Shown here piece after piece: positions 1,065-21,405 of a DNA stretch of 21,574 nt. This DNA comes from Candidatus Heimdallarchaeota archaeon LC_2 (GTDB taxonomy: Archaea; Asgardarchaeota; Heimdallarchaeia; Heimdallarchaeales; Kariarchaeaceae): positions 1 through 21,574 of the forward strand of contig MDVR01000163.1 in NCBI GenBank assembly GCA_001940725.1. Reading direction: 5' to 3'. The notes below the pieces were generated by a model. It made no database searches. It saw only the letters and a list, made by a program, of their open reading frames with translations, and was not told the origin of the DNA. Each line of letters starts with the position of its first letter. Position 1 is the first letter of the stretch. Made by a program: the position numbers and the translations under genes.

Positions 1065-2357
1065 TTAGTGACTTCCACCAGGAATAGATTTGAGAGGGTA
1101 GATCTGCATCAATCCTGGGAGTTCATAAACAATTTCTGCCATATTTGCTTGGTGCACCATATTCATTATGGGTTGTCTTCTTCTGAATGTCATATAATTT
1201 CTAATTTCTCTGAAATATGTAAATTTATGATTTTCTGATGAATTTCTAAATTTCAGTTCAAAATAGTTAATTCCATTCTTATCTAAATTAATTTCCAAAG
1301 AGTCCAATGGTTGAATGAATTCATAACCTCCACCATGTGGTGTGATATTAAGTTTAGAAAATTTATTTTCTAGATTCAGATTTCGAACTCGCCCACCTTC
1401 GGTCCACTTATCCAAAAATTCACTTGTAAGATTCGGTTTATGTTTTACAGCTACAAGTCCTTCTTCTGGATTAAAAGCTATAGGCATTAAACCCTCATGT
1501 TTCTGAGTTCCAATAATGTGAGAAGCTCCTTTTTCTATTAATCCTTGATGAGTAATCTCTTCCAACTTCTTCCATGGATGTTTATCAAATATTTCACCCA
1601 TTGTTATGTCTCTATTTTCTGCGTTTGCTGATTCAGTTAATAGAAATTGATTGTAATATCGATTTCTAGCCTCTCCTTCAAGAAAAACAATATCGCCATG
1701 TGGTGTTTCTATATTATGGAACCCCTCTACATCGGACAACCATTCTTCAGGATTAGAAAGTAACTTTCCTCCAACATGTCCAGAACAGTGAACTACAACA
1801 AATCTTCGATGTGTATCTTCTCCACTTTCTGGGTCAATTACATTATAGACTCCAGCAAAATGATTTCCTTTTCCTAATTGGCTAAGCTGATCATTACCAA
1901 TTCTTTGTTGTGAAGAGGTAAGATATTCAAGTAGATCCACATCTGGGATTGGATCTTCGATTTCATAGATGCTGAATCCACAGCCATTAGGTAATGAATT
2001 ATTGGTAGCCATCATACCGTCAAACTCTAGATTTAAGATTGCACCATAAGTAAATCCTCTTTTTATCCTAATGGGATTATAAGTCACGGTGCCATCAGGA
2101 GCAAAAAGAACGTATGGATTAGATTGTTGAATGTCCATTCCAAGATGATCAGCTGCATAAAGAACCTTTGCGAATCCAACTTCCATAATTTTTGGAGCAA
2201 TCTTTGCGACCTTACCTCCAGCTGCCAATGAGAAAATTCTTTCACGTGCGAGGTTCATCCATGGTTCTAGCATTTTCGACACACCTGAAAATGAAACTTT
2301 AGGTGATAATTTAATAATTTCCTCATTATCAAGTGTTGATAGTTTTCTAGATAACAT
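1065..2357 (-). CDS. Divergent RtcB-like protein (RNA ligase family homolog)
   Basis: The 430-residue protein resembles the 3'-phosphate RNA ligase RtcB block by block but is far from canonical. NGCGFS (124-129, C126) matches the metal-binding Cys block, GKGNHF (162-167, H166) the NHF motif, and HCSGHVGG (190-197, H190) the HxGSRG region. ANAENRD (244-250) matches the A-x-ANR helix, ITHQGLIE (268-275, H270) the AHN motif, and ITPHGGG (338-344, H341) the HGAGR loop that carries the guanylylated histidine. The Asp three residues before the metal-binding Cys is replaced by Pro123, and the HRKGAT block is not recognisable. All the Cys and His ligands appear kept, so metal and nucleotide binding is plausible, but ligase activity is not assured. 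A TATA-like box lies 26 bases upstream of the ATG. I infer an RNA repair or ligation paralog. Confidence 0.65.
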   Translation of the reverse strand: MLSRKLSTLDNEEIIKLSPKVSFSGVSKMLEPWMNLARERIFSLAAGGKVAKIAPKIMEVGFAKVLYAADHLGMDIQQSNPYVLFAPDGTVTYNPIRIKRGFTYGAILNLEFDGMMATNNSLPNGCGFSIYEIEDPIPDVDLLEYLTSSQQRIGNDQLSQLGKGNHFAGVYNVIDPESGEDTHRRFVVVHCSGHVGGKLLSNPEEWLSDVEGFHNIETPHGDIVFLEGEARNRYYNQFLLTESANAENRDITMGEIFDKHPWKKLEEITHQGLIEKGASHIIGTQKHEGLMPIAFNPEEGLVAVKHKPNLTSEFLDKWTEGGRVRNLNLENKFSKLNITPHGGGYEFIQPLDSLEINLDKNGINYFELKFRNSSENHKFTYFREIRNYMTFRRRQPIMNMVHQANMAEIVYELPGLMQIYPLKSIPGGSH

Positions 2358-2382
2358 TGATTATATACCCATCGTTGAATTT

Positions 2383-2390
2383 GTTTATAA
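2383..2390 (-). promoter_or_regulatory. TATA-like box of the RtcB-like gene
   Basis: On the minus strand the sequence TTATAAAC ends 26 bases before the ATG at 2357. In archaea transcription starts about 25 bases after the TATA box, so the transcript would be leaderless or nearly so. Confidence 0.45.
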
Positions 2391-2557
2391 CTTTTTCTCA
2401 GAATGAAACTATTTCATGAAGGAAATTTGTTCGGTCAATAGAATTTTGGAAGAAATTCTTATGGTTTAATATATAAAGCATAGTCAATTATAGCGTATCA
2501 ATTAAATTTTTGCAAATGATGAGATTCAAAGCTTCTTCTAATGTTTTATTTGAGTAA

Positions 2558-2815
2558 TTATTGAGCGGTTGAATTTTCTGCTTCTTTTTTTGGATCGACA
2601 TAGTATTTGTAAAATAAAGGTATAATATATGGAGCAACTCCAATTGACACCATTAACATACCAATTGCTATGACAATTGAACCAGTGGATGGAGCACCTC
2701 TTAATCCAGCTCCTACAATTGAAAATCCCATCAAGAAAAATAATGAAGTAAACATCAATTTGGTTATAATGCCCATTCCATCTCTCTTAAGATCTTTTGA
2801 CTTTGCTTTTGACAC
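2558..2815 (-). CDS. Small two-helix membrane protein of unknown function
   Basis: I do not recognise this 85-residue protein. A short basic N-terminus (KAKSKDLKRD) is followed by two hydrophobic segments at about residues 19-39 and 47-69, joined by a Gly-Ala-Pro-Ser turn. The tail is charged (KKEAEN). Two transmembrane helices with both ends in the cytoplasm fit the positive charges. The apparent start is GTG at 2815; an overlapping ATG two bases upstream is out of frame. The gene stands alone: about 200 bases separate it from the RtcB-like gene downstream, and it is divergent from the DUF547 gene. No domain assignment is possible by eye. Confidence 0.65.
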   Translation of the reverse strand: MSKAKSKDLKRDGMGIITKLMFTSLFFLMGFSIVGAGLRGAPSTGSIVIAIGMLMVSIGVAPYIIPLFYKYYVDPKKEAENSTAQ

Positions 2816-2927
2816 ATTTCGTTAATTGACTATGTCCTTTTTAGCTTTATCTCGCGCACACTTAGAATATAGATTCTTTAATATAAAATTTAGTAATTGC
2901 CCTCTACTACTAATTATCAAACCATTA

Positions 2928-2936
2928 TTATATATT
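2928..2936 (+). promoter_or_regulatory. TATA-like box of the DUF547 gene
   Basis: TTATATATT lies 23-31 bases before the ATG at 2959, the spacing expected for a leaderless archaeal transcript. Confidence 0.5.
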
Positions 2937-2958
2937 GAATAAGTAATAATATTTAATT

Positions 2959-3624
2959 ATGGCTTCTCAAGTAATTGATAAATCAGTATTACTATCATAT
3001 CTAAAAGATGGCAAGGTAAATTATTCTTTATTGAAAAATGATCTTTGGCTAAAAAAAAACTTAGAGAAGATGAAAAATACCAACGTTAAGGAATTAACTT
3101 ATTCTGAAGAATTTGCATTTTGGCTCAATGCCTACAATTTATTGACGCTTCAAGCTGTTTGCAAAGAATTAGAAAAAAATCCTAATTGGAAGGGAAATTT
3201 ATCATACTTCTCAAGGATTCGCTTTTTTGCTCTTAGAAGGCATTCTATTGGTAGTAAAAAAATTTCACTCTATACTTTGGAAAACAAAATATTACGCAAA
3301 AAATTCAAAGATCCAAGAATTCATTTCGCAATAAACTGTGCTTCTATTTCTTGTCCATTTCTACCCGGAAAATTATTTGAGGCAGATTCATTGGAAACAT
3401 ACTTAGAAGATTTAACTTATCAATTTATAAATGATCAAAATTCAGTAATTTTAAACGAGGATACTTTAAGCCTTAATCAGATATTTAAATGGTACAAGAA
3501 GGATTTTAAAGAAGGTGGTGGACTTATCACTTTTATTAACAAATATTGGAAAGGATCAAAGATTCCAAATAATATTAGAATAGAATATTTAAAATATGAT
3601 TGGCATATAAATTCAATTTCCTAA
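2959..3624 (+). CDS. DUF547 domain protein
   Basis: This 221-residue protein matches the DUF547 family through two blocks. The first is FAFWLNAYN (residues 52-60) followed by LLTLQAV. The second is the 118-133 stretch DPRIHFAINCASISCP, with its two cysteines C127 and C132. The domain fills nearly the whole protein, and there is no clear signal peptide or membrane helix. DUF547 proteins occur in bacteria, plants and archaea and their biochemical activity is not established, so none is assigned. The ATG is supported by a well-placed TATA-like box. The gene is transcribed divergently from the small membrane protein. Confidence 0.85.
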   Translation: MASQVIDKSVLLSYLKDGKVNYSLLKNDLWLKKNLEKMKNTNVKELTYSEEFAFWLNAYNLLTLQAVCKELEKNPNWKGNLSYFSRIRFFALRRHSIGSKKISLYTLENKILRKKFKDPRIHFAINCASISCPFLPGKLFEADSLETYLEDLTYQFINDQNSVILNEDTLSLNQIFKWYKKDFKEGGGLITFINKYWKGSKIPNNIRIEYLKYDWHINSIS

Positions 3625-3730
3625 AGAACCAATGTATTTATCTCTAAACAACGTGTAATCTATATATCATAGTTTTTACGCGATTAATCCGAAAAATTCA
3701 CACAAGATTTTATATTTGCAAGTTTCGAGG

Positions 3731-3740
3731 TTTTAATATA
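3731..3740 (+). promoter_or_regulatory. TATA-like box of the proline-rich membrane protein gene
   Basis: TTTTAATATA ends 23 bases before the ATG at 3763, consistent with a leaderless or short-leader archaeal transcript. Confidence 0.45.
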
Positions 3741-3762
3741 GATAATAAATTGGAGTTATTTT

Positions 3763-4752
3763 ATGGCATCCATTCCAGATAATTTACCACCCGAAGGTTT
3801 TGATCCTTTCTACAAAGCATTAATTTATTTGAGTATTGTATATATCATTGCCACAGCATTCACAACCTGGTTAATTACTCGAAAGCGTGCGAAGCCAGTT
3901 ATTGAATATCGTGATTCTGATGATTCAGGTCATGTTGAAATGCCAGATTCTTCTACTACACAAATTTCATTTGAAGACAGTAGAGATATTCTTGCAAGTT
4001 TAAGAATTGAAATTGCTGGTGCTGAAGCAAGTTTAGTCCAATTAAGTGCTGTAAAAAATGAAGGAGAAGTCTCAAACGTTGCTTACAAAATTTTGCACAC
4101 TCGTTTTTCATCAGATGTTACAAAATTGACAGCTAAAATGAATGAAATGCTGAAAGTTGACATAGTCAGTTCTAAAACGGGAGAAATTGATTCTGGTATA
4201 ACTGATGATGAGATGGTTGACATTGAAGCAGATCTCGAGAAACAATTACAAGAGCTTGAAGATGAGGATGATTTTCTGGCACCAAGAGGTAGAGGTAGAA
4301 GAGGGCGAAAATCAAAGGCTAAATCCGCTGTAACTAAAACAGTTATCACAAAACCTGTAGAGGTAAAAGCACCACACGAAAAAGTAAAGGTCACAAATCC
4401 CCCCCCACCTACCAAGGCTTCTATACCTCCACCAACCGCATCACCCCCTCCTCCTGAAAAACCGATTTCACAAGCTCCCCCACCAACTAAAATTGGTCAA
4501 GCCATGCCAGCACCCACTAAAACATCGACAGCTGGGATTCCTCCTCCACCAACCAAGGCTTCTATACCTCCACCAACTGCAAAATCAGTATCATCAGCTG
4601 CGCCCCCTCAAGCAGCTCAGCCAATGAAAGTTGAAAATGCAGATCCTGAGAAAGAAAAAATATTTGCTAAATCGACCTCAATTGCTGCATTAAGAATGGA
4701 TATGCTAAGAGAATTAGCCCGTTTAAAGAAATTAATTAATGAAGATGAGTAA
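3763..4752 (+). CDS. Membrane-anchored proline-rich protein of unknown function
   Basis: The 329-residue protein begins with a short polar stretch and one transmembrane helix (about residues 17-38) followed by RKRAK, which places the rest in the cytoplasm. A helical, possibly coiled segment follows at about 70-130. Next come an acidic stretch (LEDEDD) and a basic one (RGRGRRGRKSKAK, about 174-188). Residues about 205-290 form a proline-rich, presumably disordered region with the repeated unit PPPPTKASIPPPTA. A short C-terminal helix (about 300-329) is rich in Leu, Arg and Lys. The layout resembles a membrane-tethered scaffold with a flexible linker, but no known family is recognised. The 3' end overlaps rpiA by 14 bases, so the two are probably translationally coupled. 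Confidence 0.75.
   Translation: MASIPDNLPPEGFDPFYKALIYLSIVYIIATAFTTWLITRKRAKPVIEYRDSDDSGHVEMPDSSTTQISFEDSRDILASLRIEIAGAEASLVQLSAVKNEGEVSNVAYKILHTRFSSDVTKLTAKMNEMLKVDIVSSKTGEIDSGITDDEMVDIEADLEKQLQELEDEDDFLAPRGRGRRGRKSKAKSAVTKTVITKPVEVKAPHEKVKVTNPPPPTKASIPPPTASPPPPEKPISQAPPPTKIGQAMPAPTKTSTAGIPPPPTKASIPPPTAKSVSSAAPPQAAQPMKVENADPEKEKIFAKSTSIAALRMDMLRELARLKKLINEDE
4411..4577 (+). repeat. 26-bp exact direct repeats in the proline-rich region
   Basis: Two identical 26-base stretches at 4411-4436 and 4552-4577 encode TKASIPPPT-type units. The offset of 141 bases is 47 codons, so the reading frame is kept. An 8-base C run at 4399-4406 lies beside the first copy. Both are likely to be prone to slippage or recombination. 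Confidence 0.8.
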
Positions 4753-5461
4753 TAATTCAAAAAATATTGCTGCAAAATATACTGCAAATTTAGTGCAAAA
4801 TAATCAATACTTAATATTTGGTTCAGGGTCCACTGTAAACCTAGTAATTGATTATTTATCAAAATCACATTTCAAATTGGAAAAATTAGACGTTGTTTCA
4901 GCTTCTACATATACATCTGAAAGGCTAATGAAATATCAAATAAATGAAATCAGTTTAGAAGAACTGAAAAATAAAAAATTGGACACTTCTCTGATATGTA
5001 TTGATGGTGCAGACCAGATTAAATTTGATAATGGTAATAATCCAGTTTCTATTCTCAAAGGCCATGGATCTGCATTAGTTAGAGAAAAAATTCTATGGGC
5101 ACAAAGTGATATGATTTTTGTCGTTGTTGATAAAAACAAATTGGTAGATAAAATTACTGGATTTATCCCGGTAGAGATTATACCGATTGCTAATGAATTA
5201 GTAATTGATAAAATAAATTTACTTTATGATGATATTGAAATAAAATTACAAATGAATTCATTAGAAGAACCCTTGATAACTGATAATCATAATTATATAT
5301 TAGAAGTACACCATCAAGGTCGAATTACAGATATAAACAAGTTTCACAAACAAGTAAAATCACTAGTTGGAGTAGTAGACACGGGTATATTTGGAACTAC
5401 TTTGATAAACAAATGTAAATTCATTATTGGCTACAAAGATAAAGTTAGAGTGATAGGATGA
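4739..5461 (+). CDS. rpiA: Ribose-5-phosphate isomerase A
   Basis: RpiA interconverts ribose 5-phosphate and ribulose 5-phosphate and supplies ribose for nucleotides. The 240-residue protein shows the phosphate loop GSGSTV (28-33), the active-site IDGAD (88-92, D89 and D92) and KGHGSALVREK (107-117, with the expected catalytic Lys107 and Glu116). VVVDKNKLVDK and FIPVEIIP follow at 128-150. The usual KGGGGAL block is changed to KGHGSAL. Length fits the family. ATG codons at 4739 and 4745 both lie in the overlap with the preceding gene, and either could be the start. The stop codon directly abuts the stop of the convergent ATPase gene at 5462, with no spacer. Confidence 0.93.
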   Translation: MKMSNNSKNIAAKYTANLVQNNQYLIFGSGSTVNLVIDYLSKSHFKLEKLDVVSASTYTSERLMKYQINEISLEELKNKKLDTSLICIDGADQIKFDNGNNPVSILKGHGSALVREKILWAQSDMIFVVVDKNKLVDKITGFIPVEIIPIANELVIDKINLLYDDIEIKLQMNSLEEPLITDNHNYILEVHHQGRITDINKFHKQVKSLVGVVDTGIFGTTLINKCKFIIGYKDKVRVIG

Positions 5462-6757
5462 TTATACTCGACGAACTGTTAAAGGAGATTCAGCTCTATC
5501 CAAAAATCTTTCCAATCGTTTTGTGGTCGCCTTTTTTCTTGATAATTTAATTTCACCGTTAGGATCAATTATTGCATTCAACATTATTTGAGGTCCAATC
5601 ATAAGTTGGATTTGTTCATATTCATGTCCATTTTCTACTTTTACAATTAGATGCTTTCTTGTTTCAATTATTTCTAGAATTGGAAGATTATTTCCTTCTG
5701 AAGTAAATTTTGATTTCATTGGTAAATCAAATAAATTTTGTTTTTTTCTTGAGTGTCTGTAAGATCTGTTATCCTTGGGTTTTTTCCTCTTCCGCTTAAA
5801 TTCCTCATTCCCTGTTAATGGTATTACAACAATCTGCTCTCCAAAAGAGAACATTTCGTATAATGGTTTGCGATTTAGAAAGTTTCTTACTTCAATAACA
5901 GGTCTAGCCAACCCCTGGTCATTAAACCCAGAGGGTGTTTTAACAAGCATTTTGAGTGACAATACAGTCTCTACATCTCCATTGAAAATGAAAATTACAG
6001 TGTCAATCACATTTGCAATTAAACCCAGTTCTATGCGTGTAACAAATCTTTGTATTGCATCAATAGGTTGAGTGGCATGGATTACTCCAACCATCCCAAC
6101 ACCTGCAAGTCTCATATCTGTATATACATTGAAATCCAAATTTTTTCTGATTTCATCAAATATTACATAATCAGGCCTCATGAGTAACAAAACATCAGCC
6201 AATTTTTCTACATCTTCAGGAAGTGTCGTAAATTGAGTTATTCTGTCATCTAGTTGCAAATCTCTTGGTTTTTCAATTGTCTTAATTATCTTCTGCTGAT
6301 CGGCATAAAAATTGGTTAAAGCCGCAGCAAAAGTAGATTTTCCATGTCCGGGGGCACCCGCAATTAGTATCCCTTCAGCTCTGTCTTCTAATCTTTGCAA
6401 CAGTTTTTCAGGAATATTGTATTCACTGAGTTTTTTCTGAATTGTAGGTCTAACGATTGTAATTTCGTAAGCATCTGAAAAAGGAGGGATTGTTATAACA
6501 ATTCTGTAATTATGTAATTGGATTACTTGGACCAATTCCTGATCATCTTCAATGAAGGCATTTGCTTCTTCATCGGCAATCTCTAAAATTGTTTGTGTAA
6601 GACTTTCAAGATAATCACGATCTAAGATATCATCACTAATTGGATCTAAACTCCACTCACCAGGGTTTCCATGTTTTACTTGTGGATTTAGATTTTCTCT
6701 AAGATGCAAACTCATAGTATTTTCAAATACATCAAACATCTGTTCTAGTTCAATCAT
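5462..6757 (-). CDS. PINc-type archaeal ATPase with KH domain, lacking the PIN domain
   Basis: This protein belongs to the archaeal PilT-type ATPase family that normally has the order PIN, ATPase, KH (COG1855). From the ATG at 6757 it has 431 residues. Family hallmarks are SLHL followed by GNPGEW near residues 16-35, IPPFSDAYEITIVRP near 90-104, Walker A GAPGHGKST (134-142) and IEKPRDL (161-167). Walker B DYVIFDEIR (196-204), DMRLAGVGMVGVIHAT (214-229) and LARPVIEVRNF (283-293) complete the core. A basic linker (KRKRKKPK) precedes a KH-like RNA-binding domain at about 370-420. The PIN nuclease domain that should precede the conserved core is missing, and there is no room for it before the next gene. 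A TTG at 6790 would add only 11 hydrophobic residues. RNA-related function is inferred from the family. Confidence 0.85.
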   Translation of the reverse strand: MIELEQMFDVFENTMSLHLRENLNPQVKHGNPGEWSLDPISDDILDRDYLESLTQTILEIADEEANAFIEDDQELVQVIQLHNYRIVITIPPFSDAYEITIVRPTIQKKLSEYNIPEKLLQRLEDRAEGILIAGAPGHGKSTFAAALTNFYADQQKIIKTIEKPRDLQLDDRITQFTTLPEDVEKLADVLLLMRPDYVIFDEIRKNLDFNVYTDMRLAGVGMVGVIHATQPIDAIQRFVTRIELGLIANVIDTVIFIFNGDVETVLSLKMLVKTPSGFNDQGLARPVIEVRNFLNRKPLYEMFSFGEQIVVIPLTGNEEFKRKRKKPKDNRSYRHSRKKQNLFDLPMKSKFTSEGNNLPILEIIETRKHLIVKVENGHEYEQIQLMIGPQIMLNAIIDPNGEIKLSRKKATTKRLERFLDRAESPLTVRRV

Positions 6758-10502: not shown

Positions 10503-10814
10503 ATGTCTGTTGATCGTCTAAAAGAAATCCGAGATGCTGAATCTCAGAGTGATATCCTTATTGTTGAGGCCGAAGAAAATGCCGCTAAAATGTTAATGAA
10601 GGCAAGAAAAGAAGCTGATGAAATAATAAAAAAATCAAAAATAGATGCAGAAAATGAAGGGAAAGCCTATACTAAGAAAATGCTTGATGAAACTAAAAAG
10701 GAAATCACAGTACTTGACAAACAGGCTACTAAAAATAAGGAAGCCTTAAGATCGGCCAAAAAAGGAAATTTAGAAAAGGCTACCGAAATGATTCTTAATA
10801 AAATAACGGAGTAA
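10503..10814 (+). CDS. atpH: A-type ATP synthase subunit H (peripheral stalk)
   Basis: The 103-residue protein is almost entirely a charged alpha helix with heptad character. It includes LIVEAEENAAKMLMKARKEA at about residues 19-38, as in the subunit H/G peripheral stalk proteins of A/V-ATPases. With subunit E it would form the stator stalk that holds the catalytic head still. The small size, the Glu/Lys/Ala-rich heptads and the subunit F gene starting five bases after its stop make the assignment firm, although coiled coils alone carry little family information. Subunits I, K, C and E, which often sit between or near these genes, are not in the window. Confidence 0.85.
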   Translation: MSVDRLKEIRDAESQSDILIVEAEENAAKMLMKARKEADEIIKKSKIDAENEGKAYTKKMLDETKKEITVLDKQATKNKEALRSAKKGNLEKATEMILNKITE

Positions 10815-11211: not shown

Positions 11212-12123
11212 TTAAATTATCTTTTCATAAGAATAAACTGAATCAAATTCGAATCCAAATTTTAAGTATAGACCTTCAAGTTGTAACAACTCATTAATTA
11301 AGAAGGTTCCAACATGTTTCATCCCTGCAGGTTTGAGGGTTTCAATATGTGATGAAAGATGTGTATCAATTATTTTTTCAATATCTGTGGGATCCTCTGC
11401 CCAAAAAGGAGAAATCCCTCCATAGGACGGATCTTCATCTGATCTATGTACATATGTAAATCCCAAAATTCTATTATTATCACCTGTCATTTTCCAACTG
11501 ACATAGGTCGGACCTTTTTCTTTCTCCTTTCTTTCCCTGTTGCTAACTGCATAATTGTACCAATACTGCCCCTCTTCTTTGGAGAGACCCATTTTAGTTT
11601 CATAGATTTCTTTTAATTGATCATGGAATTTATCATCAAAATCAGTCACACCCTCAGTATTTCCAGAGATTTTAAGATTTTCAACTGGAGTGCGCGTTCT
11701 TTTGAATAACAATCGATTTTTCTCAAATCCATATTTATTTGCAAAATCTAATGTATTTCCGAATCCTATTCCAGCGGGGGCTCGAATTTTTTTTATTCCC
11801 AATTCACGGAACCTAATGAATGCCTTTTCCATAAGATCTGAAACAATATCACGGTCATCATTCTTAACCAGAGGAAATCGAAGTGTGCCGTAATCTCCTT
11901 TTTCAGGATTTTTCACTACATCTGAAACAATGAAACCTACAAGTTCATCATTTTCAAACGCGTAAAAACGGGTTGATGGATCAAAATTATCTTTAGAATA
12001 AGTCTTTCTTAGTGCATCATAAGAGGTCCGATATGGATATTTCCATGGACCAGAAATTTCCCAAACCAAATCCACCTGTTTATCGATAAATTCAGAATTA
12101 TATCCTAATATTTTATGGGTCAC
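11212..12123 (-). CDS. GNAT-family acetyltransferase, two-domain
   Basis: The 303-residue protein appears to contain two GNAT folds. In the first (about 1-150), FYAFENDELVGFIVSDVV (53-70) is the central strand pair. IRAPAGIGFGNTLDFANKYGFEKN (113-136) covers the end of motif A and the motif B helix and strand, with the typical NKYGFE. The second half (about 155-303) repeats the pattern with RILGFTYVHRSD and a final LYLKFGFEFDSVYSYEK. The canonical acetyl-CoA loop Q/RxxGxG/A is not clear in either half, so catalytic ability is uncertain. The substrate is unknown. The start is a GTG at 12123, and it is convergent with the ATPase subunit F gene. Confidence 0.75.
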   Translation of the reverse strand: MTHKILGYNSEFIDKQVDLVWEISGPWKYPYRTSYDALRKTYSKDNFDPSTRFYAFENDELVGFIVSDVVKNPEKGDYGTLRFPLVKNDDRDIVSDLMEKAFIRFRELGIKKIRAPAGIGFGNTLDFANKYGFEKNRLLFKRTRTPVENLKISGNTEGVTDFDDKFHDQLKEIYETKMGLSKEEGQYWYNYAVSNRERKEKEKGPTYVSWKMTGDNNRILGFTYVHRSDEDPSYGGISPFWAEDPTDIEKIIDTHLSSHIETLKPAGMKHVGTFLINELLQLEGLYLKFGFEFDSVYSYEKII

Positions 12124-12305
12124 ATTATCATTCTATAGATGATTCTAATAAATATTAGGTAAGAAGAGAATAATTTATTACTACATTTAGTGAAAATTTC
12201 TCTAGTAATATTTGATTCCACTATCATAAAAATCAAATTACTTTTATTGGAAATATCAGGTTAAATTAAATTAATAATTGATCTTATTCTACAATTCAAG
12301 TTAGT

Positions 12306-13187
12306 TTAGTTTATCCATTTAAATTTCTTAAATTTTCTATAATTAGAAAGTAAAACCACCCCAAAGGTGATGATTAAAAAAGGAAAATAAGTCTCATTAG
12401 TTGATGAAATCTCATTTTCCTTAGTATCTGTAGATTCCTTTGATGATTGAATTTCCTCCCCTGCCGTTCCAGTGTCAGATGATGTTTGTGTTGTTGTATC
12501 TATGGAAATTTTGGTTGAAATGGAAGGATTTATGTCATCTAGGGTCAATGGGAGCCCATTATAAGTATTTCCAAAAAAGTTCGCTGAATCAAATGAGGTT
12601 TGATCTGGGGCAATCGGGGTCCAATCTACATTGTTAATTGAATTGTTTTCAACAATTAAATCTGTGGAACTTTGGATAAATATGCCGGTACCCTCAATAT
12701 TATTAATTTGGTTATTGGAAATAGTTATATTATTTCCCCTAGCAAAAATTCCATTTTTAACCACGCTACTAATACTATTGTTGTTAATTACAACGTTATT
12801 ATTGAGATAGGAGATAATTCCATCATTTGTACCACTCACAATCGTATTATTATAAATCTGAATATTATCACTAAATTCTACAAATAACGCATAACTATTT
12901 GCGTTTTCTATAATATTATTCCTAACTACTAAATTATCACTGTTGATAACAAAAATAGTATTACCATCATTATATATTAGATTCTCAATAATAGTATCGG
13001 GTGCATTTTGCAATAATACCAAATCCCAACCATCAATATTTGGCAGATGAACAGATCTTCCACGTCCATCAATAATCAAGACATTATAATTATCAATATC
13101 AGATCCATTGATTGCAGTTACTGCAATAGATAACGATACTAAAACATGAACTAGAAGCATGGTTCTGAGATTTTTTCCTAATTTCAT
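12306..13187 (-). CDS. Secreted parallel beta-helix (NosD-like) protein with C-terminal membrane anchor
   Basis: The 293-residue protein starts with a signal peptide (KLGKNLR, then a hydrophobic core to about residue 25). Residues about 50-190 are a run of short repeats of the form NNxIxxxxxxGIxxxxxNN, rich in Asn and Ile, as in right-handed parallel beta-helix (PbH1/NosD) proteins. A Thr/Ser-rich stretch at about 220-262 acts as a spacer. It is followed by FPFLIITFGVVLLS (about 268-281) and RKFKKFK, a membrane anchor with a cytoplasmic basic tail. The design is that of an archaeal cell-surface protein, perhaps carbohydrate-related; no catalytic residues can be named. It is divergent from atpA. 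Confidence 0.8.
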   Translation of the reverse strand: MKLGKNLRTMLLVHVLVSLSIAVTAINGSDIDNYNVLIIDGRGRSVHLPNIDGWDLVLLQNAPDTIIENLIYNDGNTIFVINSDNLVVRNNIIENANSYALFVEFSDNIQIYNNTIVSGTNDGIISYLNNNVVINNNSISSVVKNGIFARGNNITISNNQINNIEGTGIFIQSSTDLIVENNSINNVDWTPIAPDQTSFDSANFFGNTYNGLPLTLDDINPSISTKISIDTTTQTSSDTGTAGEEIQSSKESTDTKENEISSTNETYFPFLIITFGVVLLSNYRKFKKFKWIN

Positions 13188-13395: not shown

Positions 13396-15756
13396 ATGAG
13401 TGAAAAAATAGTTGGAAAAATAGAACGTATATCTGGACCATTAATCCAGGCATCTGGAATGAAAGGTGTGCGACTATACGATGTAGCCCGTGTTGGAGAT
13501 TTAAAATTAATCGGAGAAATTATCAAAATTGATGGAGAGATTGTCTCTATTCAATGTTATGAAAATACCGATGGTATATATCCCGGAGAAGTTGTAGTTG
13601 GAACTGGTAGTCCACTTTCAGTCATACTTGGTCCTGGTTTAATGAGCCAAATTTATGATGGCATTCAGAGACCACTCCCTCAAATTAAAGAAGCTGTTGG
13701 TGATTACATTACCAGAGGTGTTGAGACACCCGCACTCGATATGAATAAGGAGTGGGATTTCAAGATGACAGCCAAGGTTGGAGATATGGTTGTCGGTGGA
13801 GATGTTTTTGCCGAGGTAGAGGAAACTCCCGCATTTCTACACAAAGTAATGATACCCCCACTAATTTCAGGTAAGATCACGAAAATTGAAAAATCTGGAA
13901 AATATAATATCCGAAAAGTGTTAGTTGTTGTTGAAGATGAGAACGGAGTTTCTCATGATGTTCTCGGTTATCAAGAATGGCCTGTTCGAAAACCACGACC
14001 TTTCAAGAAGCGTTTGGCTTCAGATGAGATTCTGATAACTGGACAGCGGATTTTTGATACTTTCTTTCCTATTTCAAAAGGTGGTGTGGCTGCAGTGCCT
14101 GGACCGTTCGGGACCGGAAAATGTATGGAAGGATCTACACCTGTTTTATTAGCAGATGGCAATAAGATTGCAATCAAAGATCTCTTTGAACAATACAAAG
14201 ATATGGGTGAAGAAGTAGTAGGAGAAGAAAATGAGACCATAATCAGACTTCATGAAGGAAATGAAATACAAGTTATTGGTTTTGACTCAAAGGACTATTC
14301 TTTAGCAATTACAGAAGCAACTCATGTCTATAAAGGTATGAGTGACAGTCTTATAAGGATTGAAACTAAATTTGGTCGAAAAATTAGCATTACACCCGTC
14401 CATAAATTACAAATCCACGATTTTGAAAACACAATTGAAAAACAAGCTATGAACATCGAAATTGGAGATTTACTATTAGCACCGAAAGATTTCAGCATTG
14501 ATTACGATGATCAAATTATTGAATTTGACACTTTTAACTCCAACGATCAAGTACTTTTAACCAAACAAGAACTCTCATTAGACCAAAAATTTGATTTAGA
14601 TCCAGTTGTCAAAATTGAACTAATTGAAGGCCCAGTTGAAGTATTTGATCTAACAGTACCTTCAACTCACAAATTCCTTGCTGGGGAGAAGTTACTAATA
14701 GTTCATAACACTGTTACGCAACATTCACTTGCTAAATTCGCAGATGCTGAAGTAGTGGTCTACGTTGGATGTGGCGAAAGAGGGAATGAAATGACAAATG
14801 TACTAGAAGAATTTCCACACTTAAAGGATCCTAAGACCGGATTGCCACTAATTGCGCGGACTACAATGATTGCAAATACCTCAAATATGCCAGTTGCGGC
14901 TCGTGAGGCATCGGTATACACTGGTGTTACAATGGCGGAATATATCCGTGATCAAGGTTATAATGTAGCAATGATGGCCGATAGTACGAGCAGATGGGCG
15001 GAGGCGATGCGAGAAATCTCAGGACGCCTAGAAGAGATGCCAGGAGAAGGTGGATATCCAGCTTACCTTGGTTCAAAAATTGCAGCTTATTATGAGAGAG
15101 GAGGAAAGGTGGAACTAATTGGAAGTGACGAACGAATTGGATCGATTTCAATTATTGGCGCTGTGAGCCCTCCAGGTGGAGATTTTTCAGAACCAGTGAC
15201 ACAAAATACATTACGTATTGTGAAGGCATTTTGGGCATTAACTAAGAAATTGGCAGAACAACGTCATTTTCCAGCAATTTCATATTTGGATTCGTATACC
15301 CTGTATTGGGATGTTCTCGAACCCCAATTCTTGATAAAATTCAGTGAAGATTTCCCTGAATTGAGATCAAAAGCATTCAGACTTCTACAAGAAGACAGTG
15401 ATTTACAAGAAATCGTGCAATTAGTTGGTCCTGACGCACTCCCACCGGCTGAGCGGATCACTTTGGAAGCAGCAAGGTTACTAAAAGAAGATTACTTGCA
15501 ACAAAACGCATTCCATGATGTTGATCAATATTGTTCACCAGAGAAACAGGTTCTTATGCTCAGAAATATATTTGATCTTTATGATAAGATGAGAGAGTTG
15601 CACGATGGTGGAGTTGAGCTTGAACAGATAACAAATCTCGATACATTTGACAAGATTGCTCGTATGAAATATGAGGAAACAACGGACAGTCTCAAAGTAT
15701 TAGCAGATGAGATATCAAAAATGTCAATTGATCAATTTGAAGTAATTCAAGTTTAA
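13396..15756 (+). CDS. atpA: A-type ATP synthase catalytic subunit A, with in-frame mini-intein
   Basis: Subunit A hydrolyses or makes ATP in the A1 head. The 786-residue precursor contains a 196-residue intein (residues 243-438). Without it 590 residues remain, the usual family length. The N-terminal beta barrel begins KIVGKIERISGPLI, and the bulge domain follows at about 110-190. The P-loop GPFGTGK (236-242) is split from its next residue, Thr, by the intein. Downstream come VYVGCGERGNEM with the catalytic Glu, MMADSTSRWAEAMREISGRL, and GGDFSEPVTQNTLRIVKAFW. The ATG at 13396 follows a TGA in frame. Splicing is required for a working enzyme because the P-loop is interrupted. The gene stands apart from subunits H and F, and subunit B does not follow it. 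Confidence 0.96.
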   Translation: MSEKIVGKIERISGPLIQASGMKGVRLYDVARVGDLKLIGEIIKIDGEIVSIQCYENTDGIYPGEVVVGTGSPLSVILGPGLMSQIYDGIQRPLPQIKEAVGDYITRGVETPALDMNKEWDFKMTAKVGDMVVGGDVFAEVEETPAFLHKVMIPPLISGKITKIEKSGKYNIRKVLVVVEDENGVSHDVLGYQEWPVRKPRPFKKRLASDEILITGQRIFDTFFPISKGGVAAVPGPFGTGKCMEGSTPVLLADGNKIAIKDLFEQYKDMGEEVVGEENETIIRLHEGNEIQVIGFDSKDYSLAITEATHVYKGMSDSLIRIETKFGRKISITPVHKLQIHDFENTIEKQAMNIEIGDLLLAPKDFSIDYDDQIIEFDTFNSNDQVLLTKQELSLDQKFDLDPVVKIELIEGPVEVFDLTVPSTHKFLAGEKLLIVHNTVTQHSLAKFADAEVVVYVGCGERGNEMTNVLEEFPHLKDPKTGLPLIARTTMIANTSNMPVAAREASVYTGVTMAEYIRDQGYNVAMMADSTSRWAEAMREISGRLEEMPGEGGYPAYLGSKIAAYYERGGKVELIGSDERIGSISIIGAVSPPGGDFSEPVTQNTLRIVKAFWALTKKLAEQRHFPAISYLDSYTLYWDVLEPQFLIKFSEDFPELRSKAFRLLQEDSDLQEIVQLVGPDALPPAERITLEAARLLKEDYLQQNAFHDVDQYCSPEKQVLMLRNIFDLYDKMRELHDGGVELEQITNLDTFDKIARMKYEETTDSLKVLADEISKMSIDQFEVIQV
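14122..14709 (+). other. Mini-intein in the AtpA P-loop (VMA-b-type site)
   Basis: The insertion interrupts GPFGTGK/TVTQ, the P-loop site also used by inteins of other archaeal A-ATPases such as those of Thermoplasma and Pyrococcus. It is 196 residues long. Block A begins with Cys1 (CMEGSTPVLLADG), block B contains ITPVH (T91, H94), block F reads VEVFDLTVPSTHKFLAG (172-188), and block G ends VHN (H195, N196). The +1 extein residue is Thr. All residues needed for the standard splicing route appear present. Between block B and block F there is only a linker, with no LAGLIDADG motif, so the intein cannot home by itself. Confidence 0.93.
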
Positions 15757-15763
15757 AATTGCC

Positions 15764-17680
15764 TTAAAAATTATCCCAATGCAAATTTGCAGACGGGTCG
15801 AAAAACTCAGGATTTTGTCTTTTTAACTTTTCTAAAACTTCTTTGTGCTTCATTTCCCTATTAAATTTATGTGGGAAATATTCTTTCGCAATTTTATAAT
15901 GGCTTGCTTTAGACAAGAAATTAAAAAATTTTTCTCTATTTTCTTTAGCAGTCATTATTCCGATGTAGTTTCCATCTGTGTTGGTATATATTCTTGCCCT
16001 GATACCAATTTCTCCTAATTTGTTTACTAAAATTTCTTGGTCTATTCTAGAAAAATTATGAGAAGCAAGTGAATGTGCAGTTTTGGAGTATGTACCATCC
16101 CCCACATACCAATGTAAAAGGATATTTGGTGTAATTTTTTCAAAAGAATTAGGAACAATTTTTCTGTATAATCCTTTCTCATCTGCTGCTTTCGGTTCAT
16201 ACCACTTTTGCCAAATGAAACTAAGTTGGACGGATGCTGAAGTATCGAATCGAATGTTCCACTTTAACTCTTGATCCGGATTGTTAACCGGTGCAATATT
16301 TCCATGTACATTATAATCTTTACTAAATATATCAGCCAATTTTTTTACCCATTTAAATTCTTGAATTGATTTATTTACACGGAATTGAGCTGTGTTAGTT
16401 TCAGCAATGATATCAAAAGCATTGTTCCATTTAATCACATCCACCATTCTCAAGTCCTCATCTTTGTGAATTCTATTTCCTAATTTCTCTATTTCCAATA
16501 ACGCGTTTTTATAATCATCAATAGTAAAACTGGGATTATCTGGTTTACCCTTTGTCTGTACTCTTACATGAATATCTCCTAAAATACTACCAACAATTAT
16601 ATCTTCCATCTCATTGGAAATATCAATATTGAATCTTCCAGTAAAATGATTTATTGATTTTGTCCATAGAGCAGAATTCGGTATTTTTGCTCCCGTATCC
16701 AATATCTCATGTTTAAAAGAATCAGGACCTCGATTAATAATTTCACCAATTCGTTTCATCCCAATTAAGTCCCCAAAATACATTTGTCGAATTTTCGAAC
16801 CATCTTCTGTTATGTTTCTAGGGTCAATCGCAAGATCATTTTCAGTAAATTGAGGATCATTAAATCTAATTTTATCTAATTTTACACGTTGTTTATGTGC
16901 AGTATTTAGATGAATTCCTAACTTAGAGGCCAACTCATCATCAGATATTTTCAAAGCTTCTTTTTTAATGAGATTGTTATCGCCCTTTGTAAATACGTAA
17001 TCTAGAATTGAACCTGTAAGGCGTACCTTTTGCATATTAATTGCATTTATTGATTTTCCAATAAGATTTGAAAGTTCGATTCCAGACATATAATCCATAT
17101 TTTCATTCAACAATTTATTTTGTTCTTTTGTCCATGGTTCTTTCTTTCCTATACCTTGGGAAGGTACTCCCTGAAGCGTGTGCATTTTTTGCTTAATTGA
17201 TCTAGCTGATCTTCCAAAATATCTCTGCAATTCCTTGTATGGTAAGTCTTTATTATCTATGAGAGTTTGTTCATCATCTTTTGTCCAAGGTAGACCTTTA
17301 TTTGGAGTATCACCATCTTTATACCGTGGATAGATTTGAACGCTTATTTTCATTGTCGGTTCGTTAGTTTCACTTACTCTGTTTTCATTTTTTAACAAAT
17401 CATCATCTGAAATTCTATCCTCATTATCTGTAAAAAATGGGTTTTCAATATTTAGTGATTTCTTCAGACCATTGTGTTTATCATTAGCTAAATTGAAATC
17501 ATCTTGCTCTACTCTTCCAAGCAGTCCTAAATCATCATCAAATTCATCTGTGACCATTTCCGTACCGACAGATTTTTTGTTTTTTAGAACATCATCTTTT
17601 TCATCTAACCAATCTTCACTATCATCTAGAAAATCTGATAATTTCTTTTTATAACCAAGATCATCCTCCCGATAACTCAT
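15764..17680 (-). CDS. Free-standing LAGLIDADG homing endonuclease with SANT/Myb-like repeats
   Basis: The 638-residue protein carries two LAGLIDADG motifs: EDIIVGSILGDI (359-370, catalytic D369) and ILLHWYVGDGTYSK (520-533, D528). Both catalytic Asp are kept, so a monomeric two-motif nuclease that is probably active is indicated. Residues 1-110 are highly acidic and presumably disordered (DDSEDWLDEKDD). They are followed by two SANT/Myb-like helical repeats starting LPWTKDDEQTLIDN (130-143) and EPWTKEQNKLLNEN (181-194), each ending in a recognition-like helix. A third helix-turn-helix-like unit (LASKLGIHLNTAHKQRVKL) lies at about 250-268. These would add DNA-binding specificity. The gene is convergent with atpA, leaving seven bases between the stops. 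A TATA-like box sits 20 bases before the ATG. A role in mobilising the atpA intein is inferred from position only. Confidence 0.88.
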   Translation of the reverse strand: MSYREDDLGYKKKLSDFLDDSEDWLDEKDDVLKNKKSVGTEMVTDEFDDDLGLLGRVEQDDFNLANDKHNGLKKSLNIENPFFTDNEDRISDDDLLKNENRVSETNEPTMKISVQIYPRYKDGDTPNKGLPWTKDDEQTLIDNKDLPYKELQRYFGRSARSIKQKMHTLQGVPSQGIGKKEPWTKEQNKLLNENMDYMSGIELSNLIGKSINAINMQKVRLTGSILDYVFTKGDNNLIKKEALKISDDELASKLGIHLNTAHKQRVKLDKIRFNDPQFTENDLAIDPRNITEDGSKIRQMYFGDLIGMKRIGEIINRGPDSFKHEILDTGAKIPNSALWTKSINHFTGRFNIDISNEMEDIIVGSILGDIHVRVQTKGKPDNPSFTIDDYKNALLEIEKLGNRIHKDEDLRMVDVIKWNNAFDIIAETNTAQFRVNKSIQEFKWVKKLADIFSKDYNVHGNIAPVNNPDQELKWNIRFDTSASVQLSFIWQKWYEPKAADEKGLYRKIVPNSFEKITPNILLHWYVGDGTYSKTAHSLASHNFSRIDQEILVNKLGEIGIRARIYTNTDGNYIGIMTAKENREKFFNFLSKASHYKIAKEYFPHKFNREMKHKEVLEKLKRQNPEFFDPSANLHWDNF

Positions 17681-17710: not shown

Positions 17711-17717
17711 ATAAATC

Positions 17718-17879
17718 GTGATCAAACCATTTCAAAAAACAGATATCCACTGACATCTGGTGATCACGAGTTTCATTCAGTTTGTATGATGAATAAACAG
17801 CCAAAGGCTGATTCATCCTCTGAATTAGGTTTTTTCTTCATGTTCTTTCAATTATGAAATAATTGAATCCCAGAACATG
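17718..17879 (+). repeat. Structured direct repeat, copy 1
   Basis: Bases 17718-17848 match 18834-18964 with six mismatches in 131 positions. Three inverted repeats are visible. First, GTGATC (17718-17723) pairs with GATCAC (17762-17767). Second, GATGAAT (17788-17794) pairs with ATTCATC (17811-17817), enclosing CAGCC/GGCTG around an AAA loop. Third, CATGTTCT (17839-17846) pairs with AGAACATG (17872-17879), enclosing a 9-bp TTCAATTAT/ATAATTGAA stem. A T6 run (17830-17835) follows hairpin two, like an archaeal terminator. The element lies between the divergent endonuclease and SAP-motif genes. It may be a non-coding RNA gene, a small mobile repeat or a regulatory palindrome. Strand is given as the reading with the T run. 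Confidence 0.85.
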
Positions 17880-19924: not shown

Positions 19925-19992
19925 CCTAAATAATACCCACAGCTAGCTGGCATAATACCTAAAAAATCAACTAGCAATTGCATAAATTTTTC

Positions 19993-21405
19993 ATGCAACA
20001 ACTTGCATTTTACGATTATTTCGATCATCAGGGATTTGATTTTTACAGGCTTAAGATCAAGAAATCAAGTAATTTGTATTTCAAATTCTTTCTCATATGG
20101 ACCATGTGGACCAATCGGGGTAGAGTTTGGCTTCAATCGGTATTTGCCCTTGAATTTGGCATTTACCTGGATTCCAATCTTGTCAGTAGGATGATGAGCG
20201 ATCTACTCATCAACTTAGCTCCTAAGCAGAGGGTCAAATCTTTAACCTTCAAGCTCAATAATAATATTCAGAAAATTCCTCAAACTTCCCGAGAACTGAT
20301 TTTACAGCCTGTAGCTGAAAACAACCTAAAAGAATTTAGTCAGTTGGATACTCAGAATAAAACAGATCTGATTGAAATCACACATCGATTGGCTTCAGGA
20401 GAGAGGTTGTCTGAGATCCAAGAGAGTAATTCTAGCTTAAAACCTTTTCATAAATTGAAGAAGTTGGGATCCAAGCTCGAAGACTGGACAATTAATACCA
20501 GTGTCAATAGCTTTGATGCTGTAGGAATTGCAATTGATGAAAAAATCATCAAGAAGGCATTTAGTATTAATAAACATAAAGAATTTGGACATCACTGGGT
20601 ATCTCGGTGTAAAACTTACCTACCAAGTATTATGATAGAAGTGGTTGGACTTCTCAGACCTGGAAGATTAGCAGAGGTGGTGGGTCACTTTTTCCCATAT
20701 CCTCAGAAAAATTACGATGTTAATGGTAAATACAAACCATTAAGAAAACATGAATTCTTGCAACCGTTTTTAGAGGTTCTTTTCCAACGTTTTGGTGATT
20801 TAGTACTGGTTGCAGATGCTAATTATGCAACAAGAAAGGTAATTTCATGGTTACAGAGTAAAGGTTGGCATTTTGTGATGCGGTTGAACAGTAACAACAA
20901 GATGTTAGCTGGTATCAAAGAGCAATTTGAACAGAACACTAATCTCAAATTCATTGTTGAATGGATGCATGAAGAAGAATTTGGTGGATTTATCCGTATT
21001 TTGGCTTATCGCCGTAGGTGGAAGGATGCTAAGGGAACTAGAAAACATAAAACCTATTATTTGATAACAACATTGGATTGGGATGCAAGATCGATTTGGA
21101 GGTTTTACAGACTTCGCTGGTCACTGGAAAATACTTTCAAGGCACTTCCAGTATTGGATCGTACACCAGGAATGGATGCTGATCTAATTCGTGGTTTTTT
21201 AGCATTGAATTTGCATGTGATCGCACCAATTAGCTATCAGAGTAGATCTTCAAGTCGTACGATAGCTAAATTGTTGGATTTACCCATGTTGGTTAAAGGA
21301 AAAAAAGTTGTTTGGCAAAACATTCCTACCCGCTTTGCCAGACGTTTGCTATTGATCGGTTATTACCGCTCAATGGAGTTCCAGAAGATCGAATTAGAGA
21401 TCTAG
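19993..21405 (+). CDS. IS4-like DDE transposase
   Basis: From the ATG at 19993 the protein has 470 residues; a TTG at 19978 would add five more. It belongs to the DDE transposases of the IS4 type. Candidate catalytic residues are D182 in AVGIAIDEK, D275 in LVLVADANYATRKVISW and E379 in FYRLRWSLENTFK. The last block fits the Y-x2-R-x3-E signature, but the usual Lys seven residues after the Glu is Pro, with a Lys four residues after instead. The N-terminal third is basic and helical and probably binds the terminal repeats. The frame is intact from end to end, so the element may still be mobile or was acquired recently. The exact IS family would need a database comparison. Confidence 0.85.
   Translation: MQQLAFYDYFDHQGFDFYRLKIKKSSNLYFKFFLIWTMWTNRGRVWLQSVFALEFGIYLDSNLVSRMMSDLLINLAPKQRVKSLTFKLNNNIQKIPQTSRELILQPVAENNLKEFSQLDTQNKTDLIEITHRLASGERLSEIQESNSSLKPFHKLKKLGSKLEDWTINTSVNSFDAVGIAIDEKIIKKAFSINKHKEFGHHWVSRCKTYLPSIMIEVVGLLRPGRLAEVVGHFFPYPQKNYDVNGKYKPLRKHEFLQPFLEVLFQRFGDLVLVADANYATRKVISWLQSKGWHFVMRLNSNNKMLAGIKEQFEQNTNLKFIVEWMHEEEFGGFIRILAYRRRWKDAKGTRKHKTYYLITTLDWDARSIWRFYRLRWSLENTFKALPVLDRTPGMDADLIRGFLALNLHVIAPISYQSRSSSRTIAKLLDLPMLVKGKKVVWQNIPTRFARRLLLIGYYRSMEFQKIELEI

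Follow-up and report, generated by a model that had tools for sequence, protein, structure and literature searches.

In the 21,574-nucleotide stretch of Candidatus Heimdallarchaeota archaeon LC_2 analysed here (the window), the gene atpA for the catalytic subunit A of the A-type ATPase (13396..15756, + strand) carries an in-frame intein and is followed, tail-to-tail, by a gene for a free-standing homing endonuclease. On the best reading of this arrangement, which we consider moderately probable, the endonuclease gene homes by tail swapping and the relic intein is independent of it. Two parasites probably share one essential gene, with the intein at most hitch-hiking. The intein would be a P-loop intein whose endonuclease domain has been lost and which is inherited mainly with atpA. 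Its neighbour is a member of a small endonuclease family, free-standing and I-SceI-like, that occurs in Heimdallarchaeota-type genomes and would home by tail swapping. Such an enzyme would cut a housekeeping gene within a conserved motif of its coding sequence; in the repair, the donor's gene end and the antisense endonuclease gene would be copied into the recipient, which would leave the host protein intact and the native gene end displaced or lost. The host gene in the window genome would be atpA, and the intein, 1.05 kb upstream, would at most be co-converted.

Both components had been recognised in a first-pass annotation of the window, and both are real. The intein (14122..14709, + strand; 196 residues) lies inside a conserved motif, at the P-loop site GPFGTGK|T, and has a C1, a TPVH block (the TxxH block), a terminal HN and a Thr at +1, with a short linker instead of an endonuclease domain; by its sequence it is an intein, and splicing is predicted. 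Inteins at this site are named VMA-a type, and one of this size is a mini-intein. The C-extein (14710..15756, + strand; 1047 nt) separates the intein from the endonuclease gene (15764..17680, - strand; LAGLIDADG_2, 638 aa), and the two convergent stop codons are 7 bp apart (15757..15763, assigned to no strand), as the annotation had stated. The enzyme has two LAGLIDADG motifs with both acids intact, D369 in GSILGD (16574..16576, - strand) and D528 in WYVGDG (16097..16099, - strand), and a two-repeat fold in its AlphaFold model, all of which is of the homing-endonuclease type, with DNA cleavage predicted. The conserved, I-SceI-like core of the model (residues about 291-638; 15767..16810, - strand) reaches a predicted local distance difference test score (pLDDT) mostly above 90. 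Its best match in the PDB is I-SceI, at 16% identity, and the matched I-SceI chain lacks the N-terminal extension of the window enzyme (residues 1-290; 16811..17680, - strand). I-SceI is intron-encoded.

The family of the window enzyme is patchily distributed, and its members keep a characteristic position. In searches of whole genomes, orthologues turned up in 4 of 35 genomes of the order and family members in 7 of 227 genomes of the phylum. Each of the four orthologues faces an intein-free PEP-synthase/PPDK gene tail-to-tail, 19-39 bp away, and both remoter relatives lie tail-to-tail with ahcY, at 21 and 59 bp, so that this arrangement within 59 bp is common to all six intact relatives and to the window. 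The seventh family copy (G048) is broken and located near argS. PPDK itself has matches in 43 of the 58 genomes of the class, only four of which were found to have the enzyme gene beside it, and no enzyme gene was found between ahcY and truA at the other six of the eight ahcY loci (G038, G040, G041, G043, G045, G046).

The core of the case comes from three relatives, G022, G003 and G037, whose sequences suggest tail-swap homing. The PPDK gene of G022, which has the endonuclease gene, differs by 3.2-3.7% from those of G020, G030 and G029, which do not, until the difference rises to 23-25% over the last 145-158 nt (log-likelihood ratio (LLR) 35-41, 0 of 200 permutations in each pair). Past the insert, 92-96% identity resumes, with the last 23 nt of the native PPDK end (6-7 codons plus stop) coming first, and G022 therefore carries that end twice; the 23-nt remnant with its stop lies at about 10742-10766 of the locus (L138, G022:C194), past the endonuclease gene and a 246-aa open reading frame. 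G003 carries a displaced PPDK tail of 55 codons that starts at GEQGGDP. Its locus (L137, G003:C304; about 1270-1437 and 1618-5577), with PPDK, the antisense endonuclease gene and the displaced tail, resembles a homing snapshot in itself. The ahcY gene of G037 differs from that of G043 by 6.8% up to residue 362, in the stretch GRLINLAAAEGHPSEIMD, and by 30.2% beyond it (LLR 45.5, 0 of 200), and past the insert the two genomes are again 95.6% identical. The breaks in G022 and G037 are placed 48-85 codons ahead of the stop, at conserved motifs of the coding sequence; the distance from cut to stop in the family would be about 145-255 nt. Ten gene-free pairs (seven PPDK, three ahcY), scanned over the whole gene, gave LLR values of 3.0-11.1; for eleven PPDK pairs the last 450 columns were scanned as well.

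Several observations at these loci weigh against tail swapping. The two PPDK tails of G003 are 79% identical to each other and equally close to the family tails, so that either of them may be the foreign one. G019 has its step almost at the same column, 2794 versus 2805/2818, but with an LLR of 6.3-12.8 (3, 0 and 5 of 200), which is about the range of the gene-free pairs, and the step of G042 is also weak (LLR 8.8-13.2). Three gene-free PPDK pairs have a step at 0 of 200 permutations (LLR 8.2-11.1, columns 1142-1811 of 2967), as does one gene-free ahcY pair, and the best point of the PPDK pair G031/G018 lies at column 2806, a non-significant position (74 of 200). The ends of ahcY are generally variable, with an LLR of 5.8-7.8 in gene-free pairs, and the permutations assume an even rate along the gene and ignore rate variation. 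A displaced native end was not found in G011, G019, G037 or G042. Finally, in two stretches of the PPDK of G013, near columns 1890-2025 and 2655-2745, identity to that of G020 is 78-84%, and in the comparison with G012 the divergence drops near the end, from 24.6% to 8.7% (1 of 200). This locus (L170) has no endonuclease gene and is a mosaic all the same: a segment close to its 3' end does not resemble the close relatives, which may be due to recombination of the ordinary kind or to past homing.

As the relatives appear to cut the coding sequence of the adjoining gene, an atpA target is plausible for the window enzyme as well, and judging from homology the window copy probably reached atpA by the same route, with a target inside the coding sequence. 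By likeness to the PPDK and ahcY loci, some 3' part of the atpA C-extein may be donor-derived. The window itself speaks less clearly. A displaced atpA end was not found past the endonuclease gene, at the protein or the DNA level, and among the atpA genes compared none was a close endonuclease-free allele on which a breakpoint could be placed; the atpA of Heimdallarchaeota MAG (metagenome-assembled genome) RS678 (L002) is 86% identical in its best segment. At diagnostic residues, AtpA of the window is sister-like before the intein (8:3) and like G001, G004 and G005 after it (3:9; Fisher p = 0.039), a contrast of small numbers that was sought after the fact and sets three other positions aside. 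Many of the residue states after the intein also occur in G002 and are therefore probably ancestral. Neither this contrast nor the comparisons of atpA segments amount to proof of a cut site by a mosaic atpA.

The window enzyme also differs from its relatives in ways that count against a shared behaviour. It is 34-41% identical to 17 nearer relatives, sits on a long branch and has a new N-terminus, so that its target may differ from theirs. In the tree, with the ahcY-linked pair as outgroup, the window copy falls outside the group that holds the PPDK-linked copies (support 83). The PPDK-linked orthologues lack the N-terminal extension, which in the window enzyme includes a helix-turn-helix (HTH)-like segment (residues 131-170; 17171..17290, - strand; block pLDDT 87-91), and both ahcY-linked relatives have N-terminal HTH-rich extensions. 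The genes of this pair, in G042 and G037 (L156, L157), lie behind ahcY and 2.8 kb downstream of an intein-free atpA; their products have 542-543 aa and several HTH motifs. A profile search, filtered to proteins of up to 635 aa, gave 16 family proteins; 13 of them entered the alignment and tree, P0001-P0003 being omitted as copies or near-copies of loci already included. With the 638-aa protein as query, no relative appeared among the 8000 candidates scored out of 5.8 billion proteins, nor in viral contigs, phages or PDB sequences, and the six stretches of genome contigs that fitted a pattern encoded no relative.

The position of the gene could instead be a coincidence: rearrangement would have brought it into a variable region behind atpA, and it would have no target there. 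The 3' flank of atpA does vary between family genomes, a transposase gene lies 2.3 kb further on, and no displaced atpA end was found. In addition, at none of the 80 atpA loci (L001-L080) was a family enzyme found (E 0.01) in the flanks, which extended up to 8 kb. However, members of this family regularly sit close behind a conserved gene in convergent orientation, without exception among the intact relatives, and we regard coincidence as unlikely, though next in probability after tail swapping.

The intein is best understood from its own relatives. A protein search with it found 37, of which 28 contain Pfam domain PF14528; three others are proteins of 969-991 aa without a PF14528 call. Three close sisters without an endonuclease domain (P0019-P0021; 58-62% identity, inteins of 200-207 aa) include one labelled Candidatus Kariarchaeaceae (P0020), and remoter endonuclease-less relatives are P0029, P0031 and P0051 (183-226 aa). 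The extein tree splits the window and P0019-P0021 from all others with a support of 94, and trees of separate segments gave no resolution. One loss of the endonuclease domain followed by inheritance is the simplest reading of this lineage. An atpA gene is present in 57 of the 58 genomes of the class, and in eight of these it contains a full-length intein (501-550 aa), inserted at the codon used in the window; both endonuclease acids are kept in seven of these eight and lost in G011. A ninth genome with an atpA intein, G044, retains the endonuclease part, and its apparently split AtpA/intein (L237, L238; pieces 2 Mb apart) was dismissed as an assembly gap, with runs of N beside both pieces. In the RS678 family (eight genomes), atpA is intein-free in all seven with a match. 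Full-length inteins at the archaeal VMA/AtpA P-loop are known from, for example, TliVMA (7qss), which occupies the P-loop site of the window intein; the window allele and its three sisters differ from these in lacking the endonuclease domain. We also considered that the neighbouring gene might be the ejected endonuclease domain of the intein, and discarded this because the Pfam types differ (PF03161 versus PF14528), with an hhalign probability of 68% over 93 columns indicating weak profile similarity.

Besides its full-length AtpA intein, whose endonuclease has lost both motif acids (L165, G011:C1), G011 has a free-standing enzyme of the family, encoded next to PPDK and about 190 kb from atpA, and, 3.9 kb from that enzyme gene, an intein with LAGLIDADG_3 in the DP2 polymerase (L139).

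The first-pass annotation had proposed that intein and enzyme form one system by collaborative homing, in which the enzyme would cut the empty P-loop and a single block would be copied, made up of the intein, the C-extein of 1.05 kb and the endonuclease gene. From this idea, the two elements, the intact motif acids and the plausibility of an atpA target stood, and the pairing with the intein did not. The expected co-occurrence in relatives was not borne out: of the six genomes in which both a family member and atpA were located, five have atpA in intein-free form only (G019, G022, G037, G042 and G048, the last with a broken enzyme copy), and the orthologues lie beside PPDK. This argues that those enzymes do not cut an empty P-loop site. 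The exception is G011, with its distant enzyme gene, and G003 has no atpA match. The distance from cut to stop predicted for the family is far from 1047 nt. None of the 16 family proteins has the contig of P0019 (21,219 bp) or of P0021 (30,031 bp) as its longest contig, a comparison of longest contigs only, with P0002, P0010 and P0015 among the proteins that have further contigs. The two sister contigs suggest an intein without a linked endonuclease, and the PPDK and ahcY loci point to sites unrelated to atpA in the relatives; the annotation had named both as grounds for refutation, and neither may hold for the window enzyme itself. An apparent tendency of free-standing family enzymes to occur where the intein endonuclease is dead or missing (2 of 2 versus 0 of 7) was discarded as evidence because the window is the index case, about 190 kb separate the G011 gene from atpA, and the test was post hoc.

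Collaborative homing nevertheless has points in its favour. Its geometry, an endonuclease-less splicing element plus an adjoining free-standing endonuclease that mobilises it, is like the phage pathway as outlined in parts of PMC2988022, on mobE and the nrdB intron as a case of collaborative or trans homing, and of PMC2814812, on collaborative homing, where a psbA case is cited by title. The targets of the family seem to be conserved motifs in the coding sequence that lies upstream of the endonuclease gene, the P-loop is a motif of this kind, and homing begun nearby could co-convert an intein 1 kb away. The residue contrast around the intein would also fit, but it is small and post hoc, with states that are probably ancestral. 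Unlike the phage systems, which are group I introns, the window holds an archaeal intein, and co-occurrence fails in its relatives. F-CphI is reportedly an example of collaborative or trans homing. Taken together, we consider it improbable that the enzyme mobilises the intein, and we give an equally slim chance to the variant in which the new HTH-bearing N-terminus has retargeted the enzyme from PPDK/ahcY-type motifs to the P-loop. If this retargeting were true, an Asgard chromosome would harbour a parasite of two parts, and phage collaborative homing would have a cellular counterpart based on protein splicing. That the gene instead encodes a domesticated protein for DNA binding or regulation, and no mobile endonuclease, is highly improbable, given the conserved motif acids, the patchy occurrence (7/227 genomes) and the mobility signatures in relatives.

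Tail swapping, the reading that we prefer, has its closest known parallel in fungal mitochondria. According to sections of PMC3630166, mobile endonuclease genes with gene-end replacement occur there in atp6 of Allomyces macrogynus and in atp6, atp9, cox2 and nad3 of Glomus sp.; as in the related loci here, a LAGLIDADG or GIY-YIG gene lies at the 3' end of an essential gene, with an inserted C-terminal part and the native end past the endonuclease. The present family differs in that it resides in archaeal genomes, is antisense to the host gene and uses PPDK and ahcY as hosts, and a replacement in the atpA of the window would follow by analogy. The HeimM2 element of Heimdallarchaeum likewise is a Heimdall mobile element with a homing-endonuclease-like gene, but it is inserted between the 16S rRNA and a tRNA gene, as part of PMC8813620 describes. 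Among the matches listed in our literature search, with subscription literature mostly outside, no title or abstract opening concerned an archaeal free-standing endonuclease paired with an intein or archaeal tail-swap homing. The related loci are apparent natural homing snapshots in Asgard-type archaea, with target motifs placed within tens of bases. If true, tail-swap homing would extend outside mitochondria and would offer a route for replacing catalytic motifs of essential archaeal genes with homologous foreign segments, which bears on gene trees. The window would represent an essential gene hit by two parasite types, and a concrete system for studying trans mobilisation of an intein in cells.

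In the remainder of the window, two genes, one with a weak GNAT match and one for a NosD-like beta-helix protein (11212-13187), separate atpA from its upstream genes, and the genes upstream of those two are the ones that precede atpA in G002 and G004. An inverted repeat, AAATCGTGATCA / TGATCACGAGTT, lies at 17713-17772, directly upstream of the start of the endonuclease gene, and the transposase gene beyond it, of the DDE (IS4-like) type, is located at 19978-21405.
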